A stretch of 42,361 nucleotides of DNA from a virus. The stretch covers positions 1-42,361 of the IMG/VR virus record IMGVR_UViG_3300036852_000749. The stretch is one strand, 5' to 3'. Made by a program: the position numbers and the translations under genes. Below are positions 29,321 to 38,823 of this stretch, piece after piece. The notes beneath the pieces were generated by a model. The model saw nothing but the letters and a program-made list of their open reading frames with translations. It was not told the origin of the DNA and searched no databases. Positions within the stretch are counted from its first letter, which is position 1; each line of letters opens with the position of its first letter.

Positions 29321-29361
29321 TTCGCGTACTTCGCGTACTTCGCGTATTTCGCAAAAAAAAA
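29321..29361. repeat. 9-bp tandem repeat and A9 run
   Basis: Three tandem units of TTCGCGTAC (third unit TTCGCGTAT) at 29321-29347, then a partial TTCGC, then nine A residues at 29353-29361. It lies between the HTH gene stop and the small Sm-like gene. On the minus strand, the transcribed one, the HTH stop is followed by a T9 run, so a terminator-like slip is possible, but no hairpin precedes it. Confidence 0.8.
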
Positions 29362-33551: not shown

Positions 33552-33815
33552 TCAGTCAGCCTCAGGGCCAGCAGCGGCCAGCTTACGGTCAACGACGGCT
33601 TCAGGGCGCGATGTGCCACGTGGAACGTCCTGCGTCTGGTCCTGTTGCTGCGTCGCACGCCAGGCCGCTGGACCCAGGTAGCGTCGCATGATTTCCAACA
33701 TCGCCGACTCGGTCTGGCGCTTCTCAGCCGGCGTGCTCGCAGCGCAGCGCTGCCTGAACGCCGCCTTCATCTCGCGCACAAAGGCGCTGTTCGGCGAATC
33801 GTCAGGAGGCTTCAT
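33552..33815 (-). CDS. Small hypothetical protein
   Basis: 87 residues from ATG 33815, overlapping the upstream stop (ATGA). A helical middle (FVREMKAAFRQRCAASTPAE, MLEIMRRYLGPAAWR) and a disordered C-terminal end. Just upstream of the HNH gene. No recognised domain. Confidence 0.55.
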   Translation of the reverse strand: MKPPDDSPNSAFVREMKAAFRQRCAASTPAEKRQTESAMLEIMRRYLGPAAWRATQQQDQTQDVPRGTSRPEAVVDRKLAAAGPEAD

Positions 33816-34765
33816 GCGATCACCTTCTCGGCACACGCGCAGGCGGCATAGTTGGCACGGCCTTCAACCATTCGGCCCTCCTGAGTCGCCCCGCACGACG
33901 GACACGACTGCATCACGAGCAGCCCGTCAGGCAGCGATGCGTTGCCAGCCTCTCGCCCAGCCGGTGCCACGTAACGCTCCTGCCATCGACGCTCCTCGAG
34001 GAACGTCCGCAGCTGCGGGAGGAAGCGCGGCGGCGTGTCACGCGCCCAGCCGAGCGTGAGCCGGACGCGCACGTGCGCCACAATCAGCTCGCCGAGCTCA
34101 CGCGGCGGGTTCAGCGCATACCACGCCCGCATCGACGCCACCCGGACGTCCTTGCGCGGATACAGCGCCCACAGCTCGTCGAACAGCCGCAGCGACCAGG
34201 ACTCCAGCGCCAGCGACTCCTCGAGCGAATGGGATCGCCGACCCTCGCGCGCACGCGGGGTGTATGACGGTTCACTGACGGATCCATGACGGATCGGGTG
34301 CACGTCATTCGCCTCTAGAGGTGCACCACGTTCGCCTCCAGGTGGAACCACGTTCGCCTCTAGAGGCGAACAGCGTTCACCTCTAGGCACGTCGGCGGGG
34401 TGCACGTCATTCGCCTCCAGAGGTGCACGACGTTCGCCTCTGTGCCGCTGAGAGGCTGTCCGCTCGTCGCCGTCCAGAGGTGCACGACGTTCGCCTCCAG
34501 GCACCGCGTCCAGGCGCAGGCGATAGATCGTCGAGCGACGGTTCGTATGGTCGGCCTGGACCTCCAGGCAGCGCTTCTCCAGCAGCCGATCAATGACCAA
34601 CTGCGTGCCACGTCGAGACAGCCCACAGGCCTCAGCGATGGTGGCGAGCGACGGATAAGCGTTCGCGCCGCGGTCGTTCGCGCAGTCTGCGAGCTTGAGC
34701 GCGACGAGCTTCTCCGGCGCCGGCAGCGACCAGCCCCAGACCACGGACATCACCTTCACCGACAC
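33812..34765 (-). CDS. Winged-helix replication initiator-like protein
   Basis: 317 residues. The first 85 residues (VMSVVWGWSLPAPEKLVALK, then GANAYPSLATIAEACGLSRR and IYRLRLD) form a helix-turn-helix of the phage replisome organiser class. A linker with repeated GERRAPLEANDVHP-like units is encoded by the DNA repeats at 34299-34504. A C-terminal helical domain and zinc ribbon (CPSCGATQ ... CACAEK) follow. Start GTG 34765 overlaps the preceding stop. Confidence 0.75.
   Translation of the reverse strand: MSVKVMSVVWGWSLPAPEKLVALKLADCANDRGANAYPSLATIAEACGLSRRGTQLVIDRLLEKRCLEVQADHTNRRSTIYRLRLDAVPGGERRAPLDGDERTASQRHRGERRAPLEANDVHPADVPRGERCSPLEANVVPPGGERGAPLEANDVHPIRHGSVSEPSYTPRAREGRRSHSLEESLALESWSLRLFDELWALYPRKDVRVASMRAWYALNPPRELGELIVAHVRVRLTLGWARDTPPRFLPQLRTFLEERRWQERYVAPAGREAGNASLPDGLLVMQSCPSCGATQEGRMVEGRANYAACACAEKVIA
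34299..34504. repeat. Iteron-like array inside the initiator gene
   Basis: Seven copies of a TTCGCCTC-centred unit (one copy TTCACCTC), with unit core GCACGACGTTCGCCTC. Cores begin at 34308, 34331, 34353, 34376, 34410, 34433 and 34490, mostly 22-23 bp apart, so many copies lie on one face of the helix. The array is in the linker of the winged-helix gene, as lambda iterons lie in gene O. Confidence 0.7.
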
Positions 34766-35316
34766 GAGGCAGCCCCCAGCGGCGATCGGTGCGACCCTAG
34801 CCGAGCCTCAACCTCAATGGCATGCGTGAGGTGCCAGCGGCCGTTCGCGCCCGGCACGAGCTCGCGGAGGAGCCACGGCACGACAACGGCCGACCATTCG
34901 TCCAGCGACACCCAGCCGCCCACACACATGCAATTGATGTCAAAAATTTCCCGGCGATCATGGCGACTTCGCGTGCCGACCCAGTGTGTGCGCCTGTAGC
35001 GAGCCCCGATCGGCACGCCAGGCTCCAACCACGGTCCTTCCCACTGCACGCGCGCGAGGCCGTAGACCGGCCAGTCCACATGACCCATATGGACGTGCCA
35101 GACCACCCCGAGGCTGCGCAGCGCGAAGTACATCAGGGCGGGATTCGTGTAGCGCTTCCGCTCGAAATCATGGAGATGCGGTCGGACCTCGTCGAGCGTC
35201 AACTGAAGCACCGCGGCGATCGCGCCAGGCCCACAGTTCGCGCCCCAGGCCTGGGCCGCGCGCTGCGCGTCCTCGAGCGTGAAACAAACGTCAGGCTCGA
35301 CTCTCAATGCCGCCAC
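34756..35316 (-). CDS. Papain-like fold protein, putative cysteine peptidase
   Basis: 186 residues from GTG 35316. ANCGPGAIAAVLQLTLDEVR (Cys with an N-terminal helix), NPALMYFALRSLG, VQWEGPWLEPGVPI, THWVGT (His) and REIFDINCMCVGGW (Asp/Asn) give a Cys-His-Asn-like order as in phage-encoded C39/papain-like proteins. No maturation substrate is evident. Overlaps the initiator by 10 bp. Confidence 0.6.
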   Translation of the reverse strand: MAALRVEPDVCFTLEDAQRAAQAWGANCGPGAIAAVLQLTLDEVRPHLHDFERKRYTNPALMYFALRSLGVVWHVHMGHVDWPVYGLARVQWEGPWLEPGVPIGARYRRTHWVGTRSRHDRREIFDINCMCVGGWVSLDEWSAVVVPWLLRELVPGANGRWHLTHAIEVEARLGSHRSPLGAASCR

Positions 35317-35605
35317 GGCCGCCCAGCTTTCTCTGCCTTGTACGCGTCGAGAATCTCGCGCGGGTCATGGGTTGCGGGTTGGCCAAACGGTCGACCAGCT
35401 GCACTTTCAGCCAGTCAGCGATTACATCGACCGTCTCGGGCGGATTCCGGCCAGGCCGTAAGGTGGCAGCAAGAACCTCAACCACCGCGGTGGACAACGC
35501 GGTGAGCACCGTGCCCGACGGCAGGCCAGGCCCGTAACGGTCCTCGAGGTAAAGCAGGACTTCGAGCGCGAGCATGTAAGAGCTGGGGAGGTCTCTACGC
35601 GCCAT
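35291..35605 (-). CDS. Small helical hypothetical protein
   Basis: 104 residues from ATG 35605. Helices (SYMLALEVLLYLEDRYG, VLTALSTAVVEVLAATLR, VIADWLKVQLVDRL) and a basic C-terminus. Overlaps the helicase end by 11 bp and the next gene by 26 bp. Possibly a helicase loader-like partner by position; no family recognised. Confidence 0.55.
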   Translation of the reverse strand: MARRDLPSSYMLALEVLLYLEDRYGPGLPSGTVLTALSTAVVEVLAATLRPGRNPPETVDVIADWLKVQLVDRLANPQPMTRARFSTRTRQRKLGGRGGIESRA

Positions 35606-36914
35606 GACCGGCTCCGACGTTTTCCTCGAATCGCAGATACTCACCACGGAAGTGCAACGTCACCAAGCCTGTCCGACCGTTCCGAGACTTCGCGACGACC
35701 ACCTCCGTCTCCGGCTGCATCTCGTCGGGCCGGTGCAGGAAGATGACGGTGTCGGCGTCGTGCTCGAGATTGCCGGACTCCCGCAAGGACGCCAGCGTGG
35801 GTCGCTTGTTGTCCTGGGGCGGGCGTGAGAGCGACGACAGGCACAGCACCGGCACCTGCAGATCGAGCGTCAGCCGCTTCAGGCCAGCACTGACGGCCTC
35901 GACCTGGAGCCGGCGCTCCTTGATGCCGGCCGGGGCATCAATCAGCTGGAGGTAGTCGACGATGACCAGGCCGAGCGGACCCTCGTCGGCAAAGATGCCG
36001 GCCAGGCGACGAATCTCATTGATGTCGAGCTCGGCATGCGTGATGAAGATCGGCAGCGCCTGCAGCTGCTCGATGGCCAGGTCGATCGTGCTCCAGTGCT
36101 GGGGCGACAGGTCGCGCTTGCGCAGTGTGGTCGCGTTGACCGGCCCTTCCTGCGACAGCATCCGCATACCGATCGCCACCTTGAGCATCTCGCGCGACAC
36201 GACAAACACCGACGACCCGCGCTTCCCCGCCCGGCGGGCAATCTCGAGCGCCGCGGCGGTCTTCCCCAGGCCCGGCCGCGCGCCCAGGAAGGCGAGCTCG
36301 CCAGGCGCGAAGCCGCCACCCAGCATGCTGTTCAGGACCGACCAGGGCGTGTCCACGAACTCCGGAGGCCCGGCCAGGAGCGCCGCGCGGACCTCCTCCA
36401 TCACCTCACTGACATGGGAAATGTGATCCGGGAGCCGCCGGCCGGCGAGCTGCGCCGACAGCGATCGGAGCGACCCCTCCGTGCGCGAGAAGAATCCGTC
36501 CGGGAGATCCGCCGGTCGTGCCTCGAGCTCGGCGCAGGCACGTTTGAGCACCACCAGCGTCTCTCGGCCAACCGCGCACTCGACCAGCCGTTTCGTGAAG
36601 GCCCGAATGTTGGCATCGCCCAGCACCGGCATGCCGGAGGTCAATCGCAGCAGGTAGGACTGCCCCACCTCGTCCATCTCGCCGTGCTGAAAGAGCAACA
36701 TCCGCACGGCGGAGTAGGTCGGCCCCAACTCCTCCCGGAGCGCCTGAACGAGTCGACGCCAGATCACGCGATGGTGATCGCTGAAGAAATGCGTGTCGCG
36801 CAGACCCTCCGCCACAAACTGCGCGGTCAGCCGCTCATACTCGAGGCAGGCGCCGAGGACCATTTGCTCGACGTCCGTCGCGACAAACGTCGGTCGGTCG
36901 GCGGACTCGCTCAC
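35595..36914 (-). CDS. DnaB-type replicative helicase
   Basis: 439 residues from GTG 36914 (overlaps the small ORF stop as GTGA). N-terminal domain (LGACLEYERLTAQFVAEGLR); RecA-like C-domain with Walker A ARPGLGKTA at 212-220 and Walker B LVIVDYLQLI (Asp320); then VLCLSSLSRPPQDNKRP and SGNLEHDADTVIFLHR. Unwinds phage DNA at the replication fork. The ORF to 36971 reads through the palindrome and is not favoured. Confidence 0.9.
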   Translation of the reverse strand: MSESADRPTFVATDVEQMVLGACLEYERLTAQFVAEGLRDTHFFSDHHRVIWRRLVQALREELGPTYSAVRMLLFQHGEMDEVGQSYLLRLTSGMPVLGDANIRAFTKRLVECAVGRETLVVLKRACAELEARPADLPDGFFSRTEGSLRSLSAQLAGRRLPDHISHVSEVMEEVRAALLAGPPEFVDTPWSVLNSMLGGGFAPGELAFLGARPGLGKTAAALEIARRAGKRGSSVFVVSREMLKVAIGMRMLSQEGPVNATTLRKRDLSPQHWSTIDLAIEQLQALPIFITHAELDINEIRRLAGIFADEGPLGLVIVDYLQLIDAPAGIKERRLQVEAVSAGLKRLTLDLQVPVLCLSSLSRPPQDNKRPTLASLRESGNLEHDADTVIFLHRPDEMQPETEVVVAKSRNGRTGLVTLHFRGEYLRFEENVGAGHGA

Positions 36915-36976
36915 CTGCCCTGCCTTTCTTGTGCAGACGTCTGCACAGCGACCTCGTATGCGACCTGGCACACCAT
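36911..36976 (-). CDS. 21-residue coupling ORF with VQTSAQ
   Basis: ATG at 36976 overlaps the end of the restored ParB-like frame (TGATG), and its TGA overlaps the helicase GTG (GTGA). It encodes a 21-residue peptide that contains VQTSAQ, from the palindrome. Probably a translational link between ParB and helicase or a decoy; low certainty that the peptide itself matters. Confidence 0.4.
   Translation of the reverse strand: MVCQVAYEVAVQTSAQERQGR
36930..36947. repeat. Palindrome, copy 6 (18-bp perfect)
   Basis: The core GTGCAGACGTCTGCAC at 36931-36946 is extended by T/A to 18 bp. It lies about 16 bp upstream of the helicase start, read in frame as VQTSA in the small coupling ORF. Confidence 0.95.
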
Positions 36977-37004: not shown

Positions 37005-38624
37005 TCACCGCGCGTTTCTTCGCCGCGGCAGGCTTCCTCTTCTTGCTCTCTGGCCGTCGACATCCTTCCAATCGACAGGCTTCGCGGCCTTGATCTCGGC
37101 CTTCTTCGCAGCGGCCGCCTCCTCCGCGAGCACCGCGTCCTCGATCTTTTTCAGGTCGACCTTGAAGAGCCGAATGGCATCCTCGAAATCGTCCCCACCG
37201 TAGGCCAGCGTGGAACTCAGCGCCGCGAAGAGGAGCGCCTGGGCGAGGGATTTGCCTGACAGGGATTTCAGATCGGCGGGCTTGGTGCGCCAGCCGACCT
37301 TCGTGCCGAATCGCTTATTGAAGTCCGCATGGTCGACGTCGTCGTTGAGCACTCTGACAAGCACCAGCCGCAGCAGCTCAGGGGTGAGCTCCGAGACGCC
37401 ATCAATGGCCTGGTGAAGGGCTCGGCCCTCCACAAGTTCCCGGCGCGCATGCGCCAGCTCTCGCTGCTTACCCTCAGCCGCCGCGCGCTGGCGCCGGGCC
37501 GCCTCGTTCTTGTCCGCCTTCTGTGTCTGCCCCTTCTCCCTGAGCCGCTGGTTCTTCTCCCGATCGGCGATCTCCGCCTTCCAGTGGACCTGGCACTTGT
37601 CACGAGCGACACAGACGTCGAAGGCCTGCCCGTATCGCTCGCCGGCGACGACCACGCCCAGGACAGCATGGTCACAGACCGGCGCGACATAGGTCCGGCG
37701 CGGATAGTCGTCGGTATGCGTCTTCCCGTCCGCGAACTTGAAGGACCGATGCCCGAAGGTGCGCTCGCCGTCGGCCGACCGCGCCTCGGGCTGCACGAAG
37801 TGCTCGAACGTGATGGAGATGACCTTCTTGCCGCGCCCTGGCTTCGAGGCCGCCTGTTCGATGCGCTGGCCCACCTCGCCGAACTCAAGCGGCGCCGCCT
37901 GGGCGAAGTGCGCCGCATCGAAGCGGACGTGATCAGTCATCCAGTGCTGCAGCTCGCGCACCGTGCGTGGCTTCATCCCGGCGAGGTCGTCGACCTTCCG
38001 GGCAGAATCGAGGACGTCATCAGGGTCGTCGACCGACTCGTGTTGGAAGAGCGCGCCGCTGTCGGGATCCAGGACTCGCGCCTGCTGCTCAGGTTTAAGC
38101 CGCGCGATGAGAATGGCGTGCCCGGCGGTGACGCGGTTATCGAGCACGAGCTGCTTCGCCGCCGGCACCAGGTCGAGCAGCTTCACGCGGTCGTAGACGT
38201 ATTTTTTCGACCGTCCCAACCGATCGGCCAGGCGGTCGATGTCATAGCCGGCCTTCAGCAGCCTGGAAAACCCGTCGGCCTCCTCGAGCGCGTTGACGTC
38301 CTCGCGCTGGTTGTTCTCGATCACCATGATCTCGAGCGCCTGCGCATCCGTCAGGTCCTTGACCAGGACCGGCACGGACTCAAGCTTCGCAATCGTCGCC
38401 GCGCGCGATCGACGCTCGCCGCAGACAATCTCGAAGTGCGCGTTCACCGGCCGCACGACGAGCGGCTCGATGACCCCGACGCCCCGGAAGCTGTCAGCGA
38501 GCTCCGCGAGCCGACCCGGGTCGAAGTGCTTGCGCGGATTGAGCGGCGAGGATTTGAGCCGCCCAATCGGCAGGTACTGGAAACTCGACACCAACTCCGA
38601 CGGACTGTCCTTTGTCTCTTCCAT
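37005..38624 (-). CDS. ParB/Spo0J-family protein
   Basis: About 539 residues from ATG 38624, AGGAGG 9 bp before it. ParB N-domain: SSPLNPRKHFDPGRLAELAD, VVRPVNAHFEIVCGERRSRA, IENNQREDVNALEEADGF, then HTH LADRLGRSKKYVYDRVKLL. The rest is a long C-domain. As written the ORF ends with Arg-rich junk at 37005. A one-base shift near 37050-37056 gives instead a Lys-rich tail ending KQTAGKKKR with TGA at 36976. So the C-terminus is probably frameshifted by deletion or error. May act in plasmid-like partition or as a transcription regulator. Confidence 0.8.
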   Translation of the reverse strand: MEETKDSPSELVSSFQYLPIGRLKSSPLNPRKHFDPGRLAELADSFRGVGVIEPLVVRPVNAHFEIVCGERRSRAATIAKLESVPVLVKDLTDAQALEIMVIENNQREDVNALEEADGFSRLLKAGYDIDRLADRLGRSKKYVYDRVKLLDLVPAAKQLVLDNRVTAGHAILIARLKPEQQARVLDPDSGALFQHESVDDPDDVLDSARKVDDLAGMKPRTVRELQHWMTDHVRFDAAHFAQAAPLEFGEVGQRIEQAASKPGRGKKVISITFEHFVQPEARSADGERTFGHRSFKFADGKTHTDDYPRRTYVAPVCDHAVLGVVVAGERYGQAFDVCVARDKCQVHWKAEIADREKNQRLREKGQTQKADKNEAARRQRAAAEGKQRELAHARRELVEGRALHQAIDGVSELTPELLRLVLVRVLNDDVDHADFNKRFGTKVGWRTKPADLKSLSGKSLAQALLFAALSSTLAYGGDDFEDAIRLFKVDLKKIEDAVLAEEAAAAKKAEIKAAKPVDWKDVDGQRARRGSLPRRRNAR

Positions 38625-38661
38625 GTCAACTGTCCTCCTGCGCCCAGGCACGAGCGCAATC

Positions 38662-38823
38662 TCACGTCCGGTTCGAGCGGTCCGAATCGTCACACCCCTC
38701 CTTGTTGACAAACTCGACCGTGTAGCCGTAGCTGTCGTCCACGACGAGCCCTTCGACCGGCTCGCCGAGAAAATCGAACCCGACGACCTCGCCGACGAGC
38801 GCCTGAACGACCCCGTCGCTCAT
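38662..38823 (-). CDS. Small hypothetical protein
   Basis: 53 residues, MSDGVVQALVGEVVGFDFLG then EPVEGLVVDDSYGYTVEF. ATG 38823 overlaps the upstream stop (ATGA). The strand-rich sequence of sensible composition supports a gene. No family recognised. Confidence 0.5.
   Translation of the reverse strand: MSDGVVQALVGEVVGFDFLGEPVEGLVVDDSYGYTVEFVNKEGCDDSDRSNRT

Follow-up and report, generated by a model that had tools for sequence, protein, structure and literature searches.

A probable lambda-like replication origin within a phage initiator gene

An O-like initiator gene and its embedded repeats

The window, i.e. the whole stretch of DNA analysed here, is an entire IMG/VR virus record of 42361 bases. 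No exact end repeat was found in the record, and a short tandem repeat (TTCGCGTAC, 3.6 copies, 95% matches) lies at 29321-29352. The gene of interest encodes a protein whose best PHROG matches are families 270, 1032, 391 and 8540 ('replication initiation (O-like)' or 'replication initiation protein'). When the window gene and 47 relatives were tested, the HTH_36 and O-like initiator profiles matched over the N domain; these are annotation families, with records that are silent on embedded origin repeats. In an AlphaFold2 model the protein consists of a winged-helix N domain (pLDDT >90; helices at residues 3-10, 16-28, 40-47 and 51-63, strands at 67-70 and 80-83), a linker that is predicted to be disordered (residues about 90-175, mostly with pLDDT below 55) and a helical C domain (helices across 181-265). 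Searching solved structures with the initiator sequence gave nothing relevant; the nearest solved folds are MarR-type repressors. As an earlier note on this DNA had said, a DnaB gene is close by, on the same strand and in a common gene block.

34765..33812, minus strand: O-like replication initiator gene, 317 aa (Pfam HTH_36, E 1e-9)
34577..34615, minus strand: predicted recognition helix of the initiator, residues 51-63, with covarying residues 47-60 (AlphaFold2 and covariation)
34756..35316, minus strand: gene for a 186-aa product that shares a few bases with the start of the initiator gene (no match in Pfam and PHROG profile searches)
35595..36971, minus strand: DnaB-like replicative helicase gene (Pfam DnaB_C, E 3.6e-61; PHROG 19)
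37005-38711, minus strand: ParB-like protein with ParB_N and HTH_ParB domain matches and a long C-terminal extension, adjoining DnaB

The linker-coding stretch of the initiator gene contains seven 17-bp units, GGCGAACGNCGTGCACC and variants, which are followed directly by a second, shorter repeat.

34479..34495, minus strand: unit 1, GGCGAACGTCGTGCACC; frame 0, GERRAP
34422..34438, minus strand: unit 2, GGCGAACGTCGTGCACC; frame 0, GERRAP
34399..34415, minus strand: unit 3, GGCGAATGACGTGCACC; frame 2, EANDVHP
34365..34381, minus strand: unit 4, GGTGAACGCTGTTCGCC, which matches in both orientations; frame 0, GERCSP
34342..34358, minus strand: unit 5, GGCGAACGTGGTTCCAC, the most diverged of the seven; frame 2, EANVVPP
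34320..34336, minus strand: unit 6, GGCGAACGTGGTGCACC; frame 0, GERGAP
34297..34313, minus strand: unit 7, GGCGAATGACGTGCACC; frame 2, EANDVHP
34265..34292, minus strand: three CCGTCA copies (0 mismatches), 11 bp apart and in three different frames, directly after unit 7

The earlier note had placed seven units in the linker-coding part of a winged-helix protein, and both number and setting hold: the seven are the top seven places in the 42-kb record in a scan with a matrix built from them, and the HTH_36 match and modelled disorder agree with the protein context. Its phrase 'mostly 22-23 bp' is a fair description of the unit-to-unit spacings (57, 23, 34, 23, 22 and 23 bp). The repeats themselves are real, but the unit is better given as the near-palindrome GGYGAACGNCGTKCACC, of which TTCGCCTC, named in the note as the centre, is part of one half plus flank. 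Similarly, units were found in the proposed extent of 34299-34504, but the feature runs past 34299 into the triple CCGTCA.

With three or fewer mismatches, GGCGAACGNCGTGCACC occurs 11 times in the window, where 1.9 occurrences are expected and none of 100 shuffles gave more than 6; of the 11, 6 fall within 200 bp. Frame 0 is used by four of the seven units and frame 2 by the other three, such that GERRAPL and EANDVHP are one DNA unit translated in two frames. It follows that the repeated thing is the DNA and not the peptide. We therefore do not retain GERRAPLEANDVHP as a repeated peptide, as the earlier note had it, since the same DNA gives GERRAP in frame 0 and EANDVHP or EANVVPP in frame 2. 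In the synonymous-shuffle comparison of repeat scores (see below), however, the null for the window is raised (6.3 against 11 observed, p 0.01), indicating that part of the signal is shared with the peptide. As in phage lambda, the result is an initiator gene that contains several near-palindromic direct repeats between the parts encoding its DNA-binding and C-terminal domains.

The repeats are constrained as DNA in related genes

A search of viral contigs with the full-length window protein found one weak relative only, and profile alignments were therefore used. In addition, we scanned 2.9 million viral contigs for two neighbouring GAACGNCGTKCACC units. This exact pattern occurred in 21 contigs, in 19 of which it lies in the linker of an HTH (O-like) initiator gene; the reversed pattern, scanned as a control in viral contigs, gave no matches. 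Several genes from the scan have the unit in all three frames; in L019, for example, it is translated as PPNDVHP, PERGSP and PRTTFT. A search of phages for the peptide string GERRSP/EANVVHP returned nothing.

A second set was assembled blind to the motif, from N-domain profile searches, to which the window gene and six relatives from phages or plasmids were added, giving 116 distinct genes of which 114 were scorable by length. The detector sought repeated 11-bp near-palindromes, of the X5-N-X5' form only, in the 255 nt past the HTH. The mean of the best palindromic-repeat score was 6.83, compared to 3.81 under within-gene synonymous-codon shuffling, and 54 of the 114 genes reached p<=0.01 against that null. 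A score of at least 7 was obtained for 57/114 linkers, but for only 1/111 C-terminal control stretches. Of these 57 arrays 55 are multi-frame, with 27 using all three frames. Their cores are lineage-specific and include GAACG-N-CGTTC, GAAGC-N-GCTTC, GCAGA-N-TCTGC, GCCAA-N-TTGGC, GACAC-N-GTGTC and GCATC-N-GATGC, among others. The half of this set that has no scored array may be accounted for in part by the detector, which seeks only the X5-N-X5' form. A third scan, from which the genes already seen were removed, provided 45 new genes as a replicate; arrays were present in 36 of them (33 multi-frame) and in none of 43 controls. Multi-frame repetition beyond the synonymous null, in both survey and replicate, shows that what is conserved is the DNA and not the peptide, a DNA-level constraint of the kind expected for a lambda-type origin.

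These data bear directly on the possibility that selection acts on the linker peptide, and that a low-complexity, disordered protein repeat gives rise to the DNA repeats by chance. The linker is indeed disordered in the AlphaFold2 model, its proline-rich spacers recur (xPPxxxHPTPxxxAP), and the window's raised synonymous null points the same way. However, one DNA unit yields different peptides depending on its frame, nearly all arrays are multi-frame (55/57 and 33/36), and in related genes the units all change jointly. The frame data largely refute this explanation, which we regard as very unlikely. The earlier note had named, as an outcome that would count against its reading, homologues that keep the peptide and lose the DNA repeats; the opposite is seen, with a consistent DNA repeat and a peptide that varies by frame.

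Repeat sequence and the recognition helix

If each initiator reads the repeats with its own winged helix, the motif should track the recognition helix. When the first set was scanned in 10-residue segments, the stretch whose identity best predicts motif identity was residues 47-59, whatever the band of overall similarity. Segments inside 47-60 also lead in the combined data (85 genes, 24 half-sites): their nearest-neighbour accuracy is 0.45, whereas the median segment reaches 0.22, the remainder of the domain taken as a whole 0.27 and chance 0.11. The clearest single association involves residue 56. Where this is Arg, base 3 of the half-site is C in 13 cases, G in 5 and A in none (18/18 non-A); where it is not Arg, base 3 is A in 45/48, C in none and another base in 3 (Fisher 4e-10). 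The window, with Leu56 and A at base 3, fits this rule. On a tree built without residues 47-59, parsimony gives 11 changes at residue 56 and 12 at base 3, of which 8 fall on common branches; the corresponding p value of 6e-9 is indicative only, since the test treats branches as equal. A group of freshwater phages provides a comparison of natural variants, in which the gene backbone is near-constant while units lying in different frames switch jointly between GAACG, GCATC and GACAC, with matching helix variants TSRGVQKTI, KKRAVQLAI and AGRSVQRII.

Comparison of homologous sequences shows, in short, that the unit differs by lineage and varies in step with the recognition helix of its own gene, and every phage seems to have a private address at which replication would start. 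The association should be read with some caution, as lineage effects have not been fully removed from it. In a dereplicated test of motif similarity, segment 21-31, a stretch that may follow lineage, scored 0.33 and the recognition helix 0.18 (p=0.005 for the helix); residue 17 is likewise associated with the motif.

Covariation also weighs on two further explanations. One is that the phage ParB encoded at 37005-38711 uses the units as parS-like centromere sites, an idea encouraged by the ParB_N and HTH_ParB domains in the window and by the clustering of the palindromes. However, motif and recognition helix vary together within the gene that hosts both, and a cognate ParB did not accompany the sites: in flanks of about 3 kb, 0/114 of the blind genes had a homologue of the window's ParB, which argues against a centromere, although a single neighbour elsewhere has an HTH_ParB domain. 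We consider a centromere role extremely unlikely. The other is that the array is a chance or functionless tandem expansion of GC-rich DNA. Although G+C is high and short repeats are frequent in the window, the spacings are irregular, several frames are used and the 11 matches far exceed the 1.9 expected. This reading is refuted by the absence of reversed-pattern matches, the synonymous null, the independent replicate sample and the covariation of helix and motif, and its likelihood is close to nil.

A second repeat and the proposed origin

The triple CCGTCA that follows unit 7 is not expected by chance (0.15 in shuffles, even at 3 mismatches), and has a counterpart in the family. Its general form is RAACCRTCA, on the coding strand right after the last unit and in steps of 10-13 bp (mode 11). 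Tandem copies were found in 34/114 genes of the first set (28 with frame changes) and in 32/45 of the second (29 with frame changes). Controls were almost empty (first set: C-terminal 2, reversed 0, other strand 0; second set: C-terminal 0, other strand 0). Unlike the palindromes, this element is constant in sequence across lineages. It lies in locally A-rich DNA: in the 50 bp after the units the AT fraction is 0.55, compared to 0.42 for the gene, and the coding-strand excess of A over T is 0.36 compared to 0.16. The window is itself a weak example in this respect: the corresponding 50 bp are only 34% AT, although the 60-bp bin at 34260-34319 has the lowest G+C (0.55) of its initiator gene. 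GC skew, which the earlier note had suggested as a check, shows no switch at the site in the window and so lends no support to an origin.

The related initiator genes are set among replication genes. In the 46 cases scanned, neighbours included phage DnaB (4), DnaC-like loaders (4) and primase (2), as well as methyltransferases, RusA, one lambda P-like and one G39P-like protein.

We also considered whether the units might be operators, at which the initiator or another HTH protein represses or times transcription, with the origin elsewhere. Palindromes fit an HTH dimer, the MarR-type folds closest to the initiator are those of repressors, and TetR-like operators with a similar core exist in bacterial genomes. 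Against this, the units lie 270-470 bp into the gene instead of at a promoter, an A-rich, strand-fixed second element and helicase and loader neighbours suit an origin, and the profile matches are to replication initiator families. A purely regulatory role is therefore unlikely; operator and origin functions are compatible rather than exclusive.

The arrangement resembles that of phage lambda and the Stx lambdoid phages, in which iterons likewise lie in mid-gene, between the DNA-binding N half and the C half of O, as near-palindromic units about 20-24 bp apart. In lambda, four iterons in the middle of gene O adjoin an A-T-rich, strand-asymmetric arm (PMC4488673, PMC7466680), and origin recognition by O is phage-specific according to Furth et al. 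1978, as cited in PMC4488673. Our own lambda control recovered the four annotated iterons in frames 0, 2, 2 and 1, followed by A-rich DNA. There are also clear differences. The present family has palindromes with an 11-bp core and at least 24 half-site types, a separate second repeat (RAACCRTCA, stepped at 10-13 bp), frequently a neighbouring phage gene of DnaB or DnaC-like type instead of P, and a helix/motif code that is absent from the descriptions in the papers found. Links to lambda O are confined to the PHROG O-like profiles and weak tblastn matches to the O-type proteins of phages cdtI and mEp554; the N-domain family HMM gave lambda O 1.3 bits (E 0.02 in a single-sequence search), and does not detect it. 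We thus call the system lambda-like in how it would work, whereas its sequence does not place it in the lambda O family.

Similar architecture is found in the Bacillus phage SPP1, where the gene 38 product, a replisome organizer, binds direct repeats within its own gene at oriL, beside an AT-rich unwinding element, and where a DnaB-type helicase and its loader are phage-encoded (PMC6316719). The likeness considered here is one of architecture, and SPP1 differs in being a Gram-positive phage with a second origin elsewhere.

Iteron plasmid origins, such as those of F and RK2, also combine iterons with an AT-rich unwinding element that has short repeats of its own. Plasmid iterons, however, typically lie outside the rep coding sequence, and the initiator families differ.

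Taken together, the comparative evidence strongly supports the view of the earlier note, that this is lambda O-like DNA with a function at two levels, and makes it very probable that the initiator gene carries its own replication origin in the linker-coding region. We suggest that dimers of the N-terminal domain would bind the units, which could then be wrapped into an initiation complex that opens the second element beside them; the phage DnaB helicase might be brought in by the disordered linker together with the C domain, directly or via a loader. Since site and reader occupy one gene they would be inherited and exchanged together, and we propose that this provides each phage with a private origin address.

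More broadly, we think it likely that this organisation is shared by a very large phage initiator family that lies beyond the lambdoids: a lineage-specific array, using three frames of a single gene, together with its winged-helix reader; a simple code (e.g. C or G as the third half-site base with Arg56, and A with other residues); and a constant RAACCRTCA arm, stepped at 11 bp, that is read by something invariant. If so, the code should allow origins, and the match between origin and initiator, to be predicted from sequence alone. The architecture is that of lambda; its wide occurrence, the helix/motif code and the constant element in 11-bp steps exceed the descriptions found, and no earlier account of in-gene iterons in several frames, or of a helix code, appeared for systems other than lambda in the open-licence literature searched. 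Lambda is the textbook case of an origin within an initiator, and here the arrangement appears in a wide range of diverged phage contigs and in prophages, under dozens of different addresses. Such a collection amounts to a natural mutagenesis set for origin reading by a winged helix, and is a clean example of DNA on which the demands of protein coding and of a binding site act simultaneously in three frames. The arrays would mark replication origins in uncultured phage genomes from their sequence, with the constant element as a concrete candidate for the place of DNA opening in these phages.

Finally, related repeats were seen in other settings. The two contigs of the exact-pattern scan without an O-like context (L018:160-210 and L036:190-240, both filed as viral) contain an array of TTGAAGAACGACGTTCACCAAGA units outside O-like genes, as does L071:4074-4110, filed as a Deltaproteobacteria MAG; L036 and L071 are both 55145 long. 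A looser DNA pattern, applied to bacterial genomes, was set aside because it returned mostly TetR-like operator pairs, tandem arrays in Prevotella and Desulfovibrio MAGs and low-complexity repeats; only L052, L062, L063, L065 and probably L048 were O-like. The pairs are GTGAACGNCGTTCAC palindromes that resemble TetR-type operators (L047, L051, L056, L061 and L072) and have the core of some phage units. A Desulfovibrio MAG (L060:4641-5019) has a long array of 21-bp units, e.g. CCTGAGAACGCCGTTCACATG, whose gene context is not evident, and a Prevotella MAG (L067:6334-6480) has at least eight GTGAACGNCGYTC units in 22-bp steps (AGTAAGTGAACGTCGTTCTCCY), apparently outside an initiator gene.
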